Assembly: GCA_913053915.1 (NCBI GenBank)
Contig: CAJXGP010000208.1
Span: forward strand, 1 to 5,052
Direction: 5' to 3'
DNA length: 5,052 nucleotides
DNA from: an uncultured Ignavibacteriales bacterium
Lineage (GTDB): Bacteria; Bacteroidota; Ignavibacteria; Ignavibacteriales; Ignavibacteriaceae
This document shows positions 2,866 through 4,860 of this stretch, piece by piece. Every line of letters starts with the position of its first letter. Within the stretch, counting starts at the first letter, position 1. A model generated the notes under the pieces. It was given only the letters and a program-made list of their open reading frames with translations, was not told the origin of the DNA and did not search any database. A program made the position numbers and the translations under genes.

Positions 2866-2894
2866 TTGACAAAAACAATAGTAAATGATATTTT
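2866..2894 (+). promoter_or_regulatory. Sigma70-type promoter of the metal-sensor operon
   Basis: A perfect -35 box TTGACA (2866-2871) is followed by a 17-bp spacer and TATTTT (2889-2894), which matches four of six positions of TATAAT. The predicted transcription start is near 2901, about 32 bases before the sensor ATG. The start point falls inside the palindrome at 2896-2915, the expected layout for a promoter repressed by an ArsR-family protein. If the host were a strict Bacteroidetes with its own primary sigma consensus, this assignment would be weaker. Confidence 0.6.
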
Positions 2895-2895
2895 C

Positions 2896-2915
2896 ATTTT
2901 CGTAGATACGAAAAT
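2896..2915. promoter_or_regulatory. Palindromic operator, probable binding site of the CadC-like repressor
   Basis: This is a perfect inverted repeat, ATTTTCGTA then GA then TACGAAAAT (9-2-9). It begins one base after the -10 box and ends 17 bases before the ATG of the ArsR-family gene. ArsR/SmtB repressors bind as dimers to AT-rich imperfect palindromes of 12-2-12 type placed over promoters, and the two-base centre here agrees with that. Autoregulation by the adjacent sensor is inferred from position and family. Confidence 0.6.
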
Positions 2916-2932
2916 AATAAATACCTTAATAT

Positions 2933-3355
2933 ATGAAGTTTGCACAATTAAAAAAATCTAGTGAGAAAGCTTCAAAACAAAGCGGCAATAAAGATACATG
3001 TAAAATTGTTTGTTTTAATATTGATAAAGTGAATGAAGTAAAAGAATCACTTCCGGAAGATGAAGCACTAAACGAATTAACAGGCTTATATAGTTCACTC
3101 GGAAATAAAACAAGATTAAAAATTATATTTTCTTTAAGTAAAGGAGAACTTTGCGTTTGTGACATTGCTAATGTACTTAATTTGAGCATACCGGCAACTT
3201 CCCACCAACTTAAATATTTGACTGAACAAAAACTATTAAGATATAGAAATGACGGGAAGATGGTGTATTACTCATTAAACAGCGGCAAATTAATCAGCAT
3301 CTTAAAAGGAGACGTGGCATTTATTGAGAACGCGTTAAATGAAGACTTAGTTTAA
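2933..3355 (+). CDS. CadC-like ArsR/SmtB family metal-responsive transcriptional repressor
   Basis: This 140-residue winged-helix repressor would release DNA when it binds soft metal ions. The N-terminal segment KDTCKIVCFNIDKVNEV (20-36) aligns with staphylococcal CadC (KDTCEIFCYDEEKVN). ELCVCDIANVL (72-82) is the alpha-3 metal motif. The four thiolates of the CadC alpha3N site (Cys7, Cys11, Cys58 and Cys60 there) correspond to Cys23, Cys27, Cys74 and Cys76 here. The recognition helix follows as SIPATSHQLKYL (85-96), then the wing RYRNDGKMVYYSL (103-115). The second, alpha-5 zinc site of CadC (Asp, His, His, Glu) is absent: the aligned positions around 117-133 read Ser, Lys, Phe and Asn. This predicts response to Cd(II), Pb(II), Bi(III) or possibly As/Hg, not to zinc through alpha-5. 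It has about 16 more N-terminal residues than CadC. No Shine-Dalgarno site is visible, but 2933 is the only suitable ATG. No cadA-type ATPase is adjacent. Confidence 0.9.
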   Translation: MKFAQLKKSSEKASKQSGNKDTCKIVCFNIDKVNEVKESLPEDEALNELTGLYSSLGNKTRLKIIFSLSKGELCVCDIANVLNLSIPATSHQLKYLTEQKLLRYRNDGKMVYYSLNSGKLISILKGDVAFIENALNEDLV

Positions 3356-3444
3356 TTTTTTATTAATTGGAATCAAATAAAATAATGGCTTTAACGGCGA
3401 CATTTACCGTTTACGCTATTTAAAATTATTTTGATAATAAAAAA

Positions 3445-3684
3445 ATGAGCGCAACGGAAACAATCGGAGGGCTTACATTATCCGGAGCGCTTTATTTTTC
3501 AGAGTGTTTTTTGACAGGTTGCCGCGGACCGGCAATGCTAATTGTATATTTAAACTTTTCCGGTTCATCAATTTTAGGCTTTATAAAACCAATAACCGCC
3601 GGCTTAACATTTACAAGCATTGTATTCGGATTTATATGGATAAATAGAAAAAATAATAAAAATATTTGCTGTGATATTGATTAA
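3445..3684 (+). CDS. Small cysteine-containing membrane protein of unknown family
   Basis: This 79-residue protein is not assigned to a family I recognise. It is strongly hydrophobic, with two or three membrane segments at about 7-24, 29-47 and 49-66, and ends in a basic, cytoplasmic-looking tail (NRKNNK) with a Cys-Cys pair (75-76). A second cysteine pair sits at the end of the first membrane segment in ECFLTGCRGPAM (Cys21, Cys26), next to a Gly-Pro. Thiols near the membrane are common in metal or redox transport proteins such as MerT or DsbD/CcdA types, but I see no clear homology. It lies 89 bp after the metal-sensor gene and 39 bp before the corrinoid-protein gene on the same strand, so co-transcription is likely. 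No ribosome site is seen before ATG 3445. The same frame upstream has an ATG at 3385 stopped by TAA at 3421, so an N-terminally longer ancestral form is conceivable. The hydrophobic pattern and operon position support a real gene. Confidence 0.6.
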   Translation: MSATETIGGLTLSGALYFSECFLTGCRGPAMLIVYLNFSGSSILGFIKPITAGLTFTSIVFGFIWINRKNNKNICCDID

Positions 3685-3713
3685 AAAGCATGCGACGGCA
3701 CTGAGGGAAAAAA

Positions 3714-3718
3714 AGGAG
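3714..3718 (+). promoter_or_regulatory. Shine-Dalgarno site of the corrinoid-protein gene
   Basis: AGGAG, in a purine-rich run starting with GGG at 3705-3707, lies five bases before ATG 3724 and eight before the adjacent in-frame ATG 3727. The eight-base spacing is closer to optimal, so the true protein may start at the second methionine, a one-residue difference. It is the strongest ribosome site in the window and suggests that the last gene of the block is well translated. Confidence 0.75.
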
Positions 3719-3723
3719 ATTTA

Positions 3724-4860
3724 ATGATGGAAAAACAAAACGTAACAAGTGGTAATAATATTAAAATAGTTTATGAGGAATTAACTGAAGGTATTAGTTT
3801 ACCTAAATGTCAAAAATGTGGCTGCATGATGGAAACACTTGAAAATATAGAGACAAACTTTAAAAGCATTCCGGATAGTAAACTAATAGGATTGACTAAA
3901 GCAATTGATGGATGGAAAAAACAAATGCAGCCGATTAAATATTCCTGCCTTGGGTGTGCACATTGTTATCCCGCAGTTGCGATGAATCTTTTAAACGAGG
4001 CTTTTCCTGAAAACGCAAATACATTGCAGTTAGACTGCTCATTTGATGTGGAAGATGAGAAATGGCCTTATGTCGACGGTGAATATTATGCTTTTTGCGG
4101 CGGCGATTATTGTCCGGTTTCCGTTTCTACTTTAGGAGATACGAAACTTGCCGATAAACTTGCAAAAATTCATCCTGATGAACTTTGTATTGTAGGTAAA
4201 ACAGAAACAGAAAACATTGGTATAGATAAAGTGATAAAAAATACTATTACAAATCCTACTATAAAATATTTACTTTTGGTTGGAACGGAACCAAAGGGAC
4301 ATAAATCTGGAGAAACATTTATTGCTCTTGATAAAAACGGTGTTGATGATAAAATGAAAGTAATAGGTTCAACGGGCAAACGACCAATACTCCGGAACGT
4401 CTCTAATGTTGAAATAAATTCTTTTAGAAAGCAGGTAGAAGTTGTTGATATGATTGGATGCAGCGATGAAAATCTTATCGTACAAAAAATAAAAGAACTT
4501 GCATTTAAGAAAAAATCTACTTGCGGTTGTGAAAATTGTGAAGATGAACAGGTTGATGTTAAGTTTGCAACAATGGAAGTGTTACAAGCGCAAGAGCCTT
4601 CTAATATCATTATGGATAAAGCGGGTTATTTTGTAATTCTTCCTATTCCGAAGAAGCATATTATTAACGTAGAGCATTATTCTTATGATAATACTTTACT
4701 GAGAGTTGTTGAAGGAAAAGATGCAAGGAGCATCTACCGGACACTCATTAAAAACAACTGGGTAAGGCTTTTAAGTCATGCTGCTTATTTAGGTAAAGAA
4801 TTAGAGAAAGCTGAATTATCAATGGATTTGGGAACCAAATATGTCCAGGACGGTGCATAA
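3724..4860 (+). CDS. Cysteine-rich MtrA-like corrinoid protein with C-terminal DUF4346-like domain
   Basis: This 378-residue protein has three parts. (1) Residues 1-105: two cysteine clusters, CQKCGC (29-34) and CLGCAHCYP (75-83, Cys75/78/81), the second resembling an Fe-S or metal site. (2) Residues about 112-262: a domain like subunit A of tetrahydromethanopterin S-methyltransferase, with WPYVDGEY (114-121), CPVSVSTLGD (130-139), GKTETENIGIDKVIKN (158-173), EPKGHKSGE (189-197) and RKQVEVVDMI (235-244). In archaeal MtrA a histidine in the matching G-H-x-T/S-G stretch is the lower cobalt ligand, so His193 probably binds a cobamide. (3) Residues about 296-376: a segment ending in HAAYLGKELEKAEL (352-365), which I recall as DUF4346, a domain also found with pterin-binding proteins. 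Between (2) and (3) lies a further cluster, CGCENC (267-272). There are fourteen cysteines in all. No signal peptide or membrane anchor is visible, unlike archaeal MtrA, and no other mtr subunit is nearby. It probably carries a methyl group in the cytoplasm; donor and acceptor are unknown. The metal sensor upstream suggests metal-linked control. Confidence 0.85.
   Translation: MMEKQNVTSGNNIKIVYEELTEGISLPKCQKCGCMMETLENIETNFKSIPDSKLIGLTKAIDGWKKQMQPIKYSCLGCAHCYPAVAMNLLNEAFPENANTLQLDCSFDVEDEKWPYVDGEYYAFCGGDYCPVSVSTLGDTKLADKLAKIHPDELCIVGKTETENIGIDKVIKNTITNPTIKYLLLVGTEPKGHKSGETFIALDKNGVDDKMKVIGSTGKRPILRNVSNVEINSFRKQVEVVDMIGCSDENLIVQKIKELAFKKKSTCGCENCEDEQVDVKFATMEVLQAQEPSNIIMDKAGYFVILPIPKKHIINVEHYSYDNTLLRVVEGKDARSIYRTLIKNNWVRLLSHAAYLGKELEKAELSMDLGTKYVQDGA

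Follow-up and report, generated by a model that had tools for sequence, protein, structure and literature searches.

What is a metal sensor of the CadC type doing in front of a gene for a corrinoid protein of the MtrA type, the corrinoid subunit of the methanogen methyl-tetrahydromethanopterin:coenzyme M (methyl-H4MPT:CoM) methyltransferase? The question arises from contig CAJXGP010000208.1 of an uncultured Ignavibacteriales bacterium, the whole 5,052-nucleotide stretch of which is referred to here as the window. Three co-directional open reading frames (ORFs) on the plus strand, at 2933-3355, 3445-3684 and 3724-4860, are separated by intergenic gaps of 89 and 39 bp, the layout given in an initial annotation that proposed a metal-handling corrinoid methyl-transfer operon with a sensor, a small membrane protein and an MtrA-like protein. 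We find that a metal-controlled corrinoid module of this kind is a well supported recurrent genomic unit. Metal-sensing switches, together with metal pumps or arsenic-methylating enzymes, accompany the gene in distant relatives, which suggests an undescribed handling of toxic metals. The best overall reading, which we judge to have about an even chance of being right, is metal-induced methyl transfer through the corrinoid, acting on soft metal(loid)s, with a window copy that is partly decayed.

The third ORF (3724-4860, +) looks intact and encodes a 378-residue protein that matches Pfam MtrA (PF04208) with 130.8 bits against a gathering cut-off of 25 and DUF4346 with 73 bits, also above the cut-off. 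Its MtrA corrinoid domain spans residues 112-264 (4057-4515, +) and contains the lower-ligand His193, equivalent to His84 of MtrA; DUF4346 covers residues 297-376 (4612-4851, +), with invariant His318 and His352. A six-cysteine region precedes both (3808-3966, +), formed by Cys29, 32 and 34 and by Cys75, 78 and 81, all invariant in alignment rows with letters (59/59 and 60/60); a third cluster at 267, 269 and 272 is less conserved (55/59, 50/58 and 45/62). The soluble MtrA-like protein with three cysteine clusters that had been annotated is thus borne out. The roles of the cobalamin-site residues, namely the lower-ligand His and its Glu partner, are described in passages of PMC4915002. In MtrA numbering, T53, E54, N55, G57 and N64 occur in 62 of 62 rows and H84 in 63 of 63, and residue 61 is I, V or L across the alignment. 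A structure model of the protein superposes on cobalamin-bound MtrA. Judged from sequence and model, the 378-residue protein is a genuine fusion of an MtrA corrinoid domain with DUF4346, and it is predicted to bind cobalamin. The N-terminal and DUF4346 parts of the model had no listed fold match, which is not evidence of a new fold.

In fold and in the residues of the cobalamin site, the lower-ligand His and its Glu partner among them, the family agrees with methanogen MtrA (PF04208; PDB 5laa, 5l8x, 8q3v and 9qtr), but it adds the Cys-rich N terminus and DUF4346, and in most rows it carries G(R/K)RP-L(K/R)N in place of the meander GAIPF-EN. It also falls below the NCBIfam cut-offs for MtrA-type proteins (123.4 bits for the window protein with the equivalog TIGR01111, cut-off 249.15), and many of its relatives differ from MtrA in their metal-regulated context.

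The first ORF (2933-3355, +) encodes a 140-residue ArsR-family protein (Pfam HTH_5, 52 bits) that exceeds the cut-off of the ArsR/SmtB metalloregulator model NF033788 (77.8 bits against 55). It has sequence matches in the PDB to Lmo1102 (9t6r) and CadC (1u2w/3f72) over residues 19-133, and Cys23, 27, 74 and 76 fall on CadC cysteines in the alignment; at the second of these positions solved CadC chains have G and Lmo1102 has C. The alpha3N site of CadC, which we take to be Cys7, 11, 58 and 60, has its four-cysteine set complete in the window regulator. The four-cysteine CadC-type sensor of the initial annotation therefore stands. CadC-type repressors resemble it in sequence across residues 19-133 and in the four cysteines but differ in the genes that they regulate: neither a metal ATPase nor an efflux pump was found in the 5-kb window, and relatives do have ATPases.

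One promoter with a palindromic operator had been proposed in front of this gene. A sigma-70-like promoter, TTGACA-17-TATTTT (2866-2894, +), is present with 10 of 12 consensus matches; as a consensus match only, and with 17 sites of this kind in the region where shuffled sequence gives 12.1, it is weak evidence taken alone. The palindrome ATTTTCGTAGATACGAAAAT (2896-2915, +; 9-bp arms) is a probable ArsR site and is kept in three relatives: the pattern ATTTTCG(T/C)A..T(A/G)CGAAAAT lies upstream of all four arsR genes (those of the window, L001, L002 and L011) at the same position, and a zero-mismatch copy occurs exactly once in each of three relatives' genomes, each time at this arsR. Because the palindrome is shared at the same place and has a single exact copy per genome, its conservation is good evidence for a dedicated, autoregulated operon to which ArsR is predicted to bind. 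A wider ArsR regulon was rejected, since there is one zero-mismatch site per genome and two-mismatch sites occur at the level of a reversed-pattern control. One such two-mismatch copy (G011:C138:1666-1685, in L168) lies just after arsR, ahead of the genes standing between it and the MtrA fusion; genome-wide, sites of this kind are at control level.

Relatives of the regulator, 66-69% identical, sit in the same gene strings in L001, L002 and L011 (in L011, 6 kb upstream), and in L157 and L186, which belong to other phyla, an ArsR with the same C-x3-C and CVC cysteines adjoins the MtrA-DUF4346 gene. Context mapping by tblastn covered 36 loci outside a Nitrospirota group, window included; a fragment (L045) and a duplicate of L056 (L057) were left out, and the relic L150 gave no MtrA match. 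The mapping seeds were drawn from loci with the gene, so the counts lean to nearness. A regulator lay within 1.1 kb in 15 of the 36 loci (ArsR in 8, CsoR-type in 5, MerR in 2), an OB-fold gene was found in 11 and the membrane piece in 13, and 22 loci had at least one metal or partner gene. The gene orders were ArsR-OB-membrane-MtrA (L001, L002, L155), CsoR-OB-membrane-MtrA (L144-L147, L151) and ArsR-MtrA-OB-membrane (L158, L159), with a divergent MerR in L010 and L058 and a P-type ATPase beside the gene in L005 and L012. Both of the Planococcus plasmids examined, out of three, carry the string ArsR-HMA-P-type ATPase-MtrA, followed by an ISL3 transposase. Regulator and partner families were confirmed by Pfam or NCBIfam for representatives only; the MerR of L058 reached 148.5 bits for CadR-PbrR, just below the cut-off of 151.45. 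The CsoR-type repressor of L146 (L146:2520-2855, with relatives in L144, L145, L147 and L151) has a Cys-rich tail, CPGTCEYC, and seems to be without what we take to be the usual Cys ligands.

Pfam searches of 28 whole genomes (102.6 Mb, 31 MtrA-DUF4346 genes) served as a control independent of the mapping seeds. At least 6 of 189 ArsR genes lay within 1.2 kb of the gene, where 0.16 would be expected, as did 5 of 15 CsoR-type genes (0.012 expected), and at least 9 of the 28 genomes had one or the other at this distance. The membrane piece had 13 matches in the same genomes, 12 of them beside or fused to MtrA-DUF4346. A blind sample of 395 genomes from the phylum of G008, unseen before and searched with the same regulator seeds, contained the gene in 12 genomes, one of which was known before, and added 12 new loci. 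In 7 of these 12 an ArsR lay no more than 300 nt away, on one side or the other, counting the one of L185, a 40% identical piece at a contig end that was not recovered as an ORF; OB-fold and membrane genes were present in three loci and a membrane gene in a fourth. On a 61-row tree, in which some rows are long and their places unsure, the ArsR label needs five changes, three of them forced, and the regulator link therefore arose or was lost repeatedly. The initial annotation had said that a system would be supported if distant taxa repeatedly paired the fusion with metal regulators and with the membrane protein. Such pairing is seen for ArsR, CsoR-type and MerR regulators and a dedicated membrane protein in several phyla, and in the Planococcus plasmid operon; the Nitrospirota group, described below, departs from it. 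Taken together, these data make metal control of the module highly probable.

Two relatives bear on the chemistry. L189 (9444-10613, +) and L190 (9235-10395, -) contain MtrA-DUF4346 genes with a single in-frame UGA exactly at invariant Cys75; the frames are otherwise open over 390 and 387 residues, are 56% identical to each other, and pass Pfam MtrA and DUF4346 with the UGA read as selenocysteine (passed on as Cys). These are apparent selenocysteine forms of the protein. Directly upstream on the same strand, 64 nt (L189) and 11 nt (L190) from stop to start, lies an ArsM-like methyltransferase gene with its own in-frame UGA in a UxxG motif; arsenite methyltransferase selenoproteins with UxxG are among those listed in part of PMC13188914. 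The two genes scored 180-185 bits with the plain ArsM model (cut-off 263) and 264-281 bits with two selenoprotein types (cut-offs 460 and 510), models that describe longer proteins. In their UxxG motif they resemble selenocysteine-type ArsM, but they lie below the NCBIfam ArsM cut-offs; ArsM is in any case a separate protein, and none is encoded in the window. S-adenosylmethionine (SAM) methyltransferases were also found near the gene in L011 and L149 (MduS-like, 284 and 296 bits, cut-off 380) and in L012.

The second ORF did not survive as annotated. The membrane domain of L002 aligns in one piece, with 126 bits, to window positions 3388-3723 (+). This stretch is interrupted by in-frame TAA codons at 3421-3423 and 3682-3684, and the 79-residue ORF at 3445-3684 lies inside it. 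The first 58-67 residues of the domain are missing, and so is the OB-fold gene that precedes it in relatives: from the ArsR stop to a landmark codon there are 134 nt in the window and 680 or 707 nt in L001 and L002, so that about 550-570 bp are absent, and with them the OB-fold gene and the first part of the membrane domain. The invariant CCGSP has become CRGPA, while the terminal CC of the ORF (ICCDID) is present. By alignment, the ORF is a decaying remnant of a domain that relatives carry intact, fused or adjacent, and we reject it as the genuine small membrane protein with paired cysteines that had been proposed.

In relatives this domain is well kept. Most of the closest relatives of the MtrA-DUF4346 protein among the matches listed are 544-582 residues long, with about 165 extra N-terminal residues; in L144-L147 the membrane piece is a separate gene that overlaps the MtrA gene. 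A model of a stand-alone homologue has five longer helices, and the invariant stretch GC-F-x-L-G-C-C-G-S-P runs through 34 rows, which differ slightly at columns other than the invariant ones. Representatives belong to no Pfam or NCBIfam family, and L146:3236-3748 had no Pfam match up to E 0.01. Foldseek returned nothing better than E 2.7; the model searched has a mean pLDDT of 70.6, and its quality may not suffice for a match. A further protein, P0195, combines the membrane (CCxxP) domain with a GDCCVxC (seleno)protein domain (NF041374, 99.7 bits). The OB-fold partner is labelled CcmE (two rows) or tRNA_anti-like (one row) in source databases, and 21 of 45 OB-fold homologues have the length of their longest contig in common with a listed MtrA fusion, which hints indirectly at linkage.

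These observations suggest a scheme in which the metalloregulator, here a CadC-like ArsR, would act at the palindrome and keep the operon repressed until it binds a soft metal ion. The operon would yield a cytosolic protein in which an N-terminal region with six cysteines, binding metal or Fe-S, is followed by an MtrA corrinoid domain and DUF4346. Its partners in intact relatives would be the small CCxxP membrane protein together with an OB-fold protein, apparently membrane-anchored and extracytoplasmic, or else a thioredoxin/DsbD pair, or a metal ATPase. Metal would be handed to the cysteine region, and the corrinoid would carry a methyl group to it or, less likely, take one from an organometal, as a detoxification step. 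Corrinoid occupancy, methyl transfer and its direction, the metal, and the use of the CCxxP protein in metal passage are what we infer here; methyl transfer to or from a metal(loid) falls just short of an even chance. Of the operon first proposed, the metal-regulated context recurs, the membrane ORF is a remnant, and P-type ATPases, none of which is in the window, do occur elsewhere.

Several points weigh against metal-induced methyl transfer. No constant methyl donor accompanies the gene, as SAM methyltransferases were noticed in 5 of 48 loci (36 mapped and 12 blind), and 14 of the 36 mapped loci, some of them short contigs, are without a metal or partner gene. P-type ATPases are only weakly enriched in the 28 genomes (2 of 150 within 2 kb, 0.19 expected, P 0.016), and we set this aside as strong support. 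The CsoR-type loci, three of which are in one genome, are related, as are L181-L183 and L192, so the Poisson figures overstate independence. Simple folds of 57 nt after the UGA, examined for a selenocysteine insertion sequence, gave z values of -0.6 and 0.5, which are not significant. The Planococcus, Paraburkholderia and cyanobacterium hosts are probably aerobic, which is hard on Co(I) chemistry. The window copy itself may be failing, because its membrane part is broken. Finally, the Nitrospirota group (L017-L039 and L041-L044) forms one clade on the tree (100/100). In 26 of its 27 loci ParA lies no more than 300 nt from the gene, a seed regulator within 5 kb is found in 0 of 27, and its copies keep the same invariant residues. 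Unrelated neighbourhoods without a metal regulator, which the initial annotation would have taken as fatal had they been the only ones, describe this group and not the metal-linked copies. Outside the Nitrospirota group full-length copies, counted at matches better than 1e-50, are scarce: one among 244 genomes of the G012 phylum, one among 250 of the G005 phylum, 7 among 297 of the G009 phylum, 8 among 245 of the class of G001 and 2 among 296 of the phylum of G001. Because of the Nitrospirota loci and the 14 loci without metal context, the basic chemistry need not concern metals and may be general and recruited by metal operons.

The strongest alternative follows from this last point: the protein may serve one-carbon or methionine metabolism generally as a corrinoid methyl carrier and have been drafted into metal operons, for instance to stand in for methyl-transfer enzymes that thiophilic metals poison, so that metal controls the gene and is not the methyl acceptor. 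The Nitrospirota copies fit this, MtrA is predicted to be the methyl donor to the methionine synthase MesA in methanogens (a section of PMC7857596), and DUF4346 is common to dihydropteroate-synthase-like proteins (TIGR00284 match). Among gene clusters found in two or more loci, however, none for methionine or folate comes up repeatedly next to the metal-linked copies (a truncated-MTHFR-looking gene was seen by eye near L158 only), and the dedicated CCxxP membrane, OB-fold and arsM-like partners are left unexplained. We regard this alternative as unlikely, though it is the best of the rivals.

Somewhat less probable still is that the protein works through its cysteines as a metal chaperone or reductant. 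It would then belong to a thiol relay, with the membrane CCxxP protein and an OB-fold or thioredoxin/DsbD partner, that feeds efflux pumps, and its corrinoid domain would be redox-active or structural, with no methyl group moved. The invariant cysteines and the UGA at a cysteine position agree with it, as do the thioredoxin and DsbD_TM genes that neighbour the gene in L154 and L157 (order ArsR-MtrA-thioredoxin-DsbD) and the ATPase or CzcA-type RND genes near it in seven loci (L005, L012, L010, L148, L154, L159 and L056). Cobalamin residues that are invariant in every row with letters, and the SAM methyltransferases adjoining the gene in L189 and L190, point instead to methyl chemistry.

Cobalt or cobalamin homeostasis, with sensors that answer to cobalt and a protein that stores or repairs corrinoid under an excess of cobalt or another metal, is improbable. 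CsoR-type and MerR families do include cobalt or nickel sensors, and CzcA-type genes are nearby, but the window regulator has the CadC cysteine set, and no cobalamin biosynthesis or uptake gene was noticed beside the gene, although no family-level search for them was made. That the neighbours are there by chance, with a housekeeping role everywhere, has next to no likelihood: the ParA context, and the loci in which neither a metal nor a partner gene is seen, would allow it, and the whole-genome control, blind sample, conserved operator and plasmid operon contradict it for the metal-linked copies.

For metal-induced corrinoid methyl transfer, HgcAB is a precedent, which it resembles in logic only, as had been suggested for HgcA: a corrinoid domain, a membrane domain of about five helices and a cysteine-rich part. 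According to part of PMC11588087 the methyl donor of HgcAB is SAM, and selenocysteine forms of HgcA and HgcB are listed in a portion of PMC13188914. The module differs in its corrinoid family (MtrA type), metalloregulator control and CCxxP in the membrane part; no HgcB-like ferredoxin was noticed, and no HgcA model was among five NCBIfam matches up to E 10. The mer operon offers a second likeness, in motif and logic, in that MerT is presumably a small CCxxP membrane protein with a possible hand-over to a cytosolic enzyme. Unlike in the mer operon (MerT, MerP, MerA), no MerA was noticed, and homology of the membrane family to MerT was rejected, since only the CCxxP motif is shared, PF02411 is not matched and there is no Pfam match up to E 0.01. 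Downstream of an MtrA-DUF4346 fragment in L149 lie a MerT-like CC protein gene (1987-2571, below the cut-off) and a DsbD_TM gene; on plasmids the MerT-like gene had one weak match, and this line was set aside.

In the open-access literature searched we found no mention of DUF4346, and no title among the matches listed placed an MtrA-type protein in metal resistance; a term search of a comparative survey of metal-resistance regulation (PMC1526738) found the words MtrA, methyltransferase and corrinoid absent. MtrA-like proteins are present in some bacteria (a passage of PMC4915002), and the activity of those of non-methanogens is noted as unclear in part of PMC11291895. MtrA-DUF4346 with its CCxxP membrane and OB-fold partners could tentatively be a second corrinoid metal(loid) methylation system beside HgcAB, built on another corrinoid family, induced through ArsR, CsoR-type or MerR regulators, carried on some plasmids, and with a selenocysteine form in one operon with a selenocysteine ArsM, although we think this rather unlikely as a whole. 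If the metal-induced methyl-transfer reading is right, corrinoid methyl chemistry outside methanogenesis and acetogenesis would serve metal defence, and 'tetrahydromethanopterin S-methyltransferase subunit A' would be a misnomer in non-methanogens. A second route of methylation or demethylation would also change how metagenomes are read for environmental metal cycling, since the toxicity and mobility of a metal depend on its methylation. What the module puts up for testing is concrete: a single operator, a single soluble protein, a single membrane family that Pfam does not list, and a selenocysteine variant in which the altered position draws attention to a key cysteine.

Broken or relic copies of the MtrA-DUF4346 gene were seen at L045:6968-7559, in L150 (about 3061-4008) and as a second fragment in the L144 contig, and the gene therefore decays recurrently. 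Viral contigs had no matching stretch. On the minus strand of the window, an NAD-dependent epimerase (148-1161) and a DegT aminotransferase (1337-2521) form a polysaccharide-type pair that is apparently unrelated to the operon.

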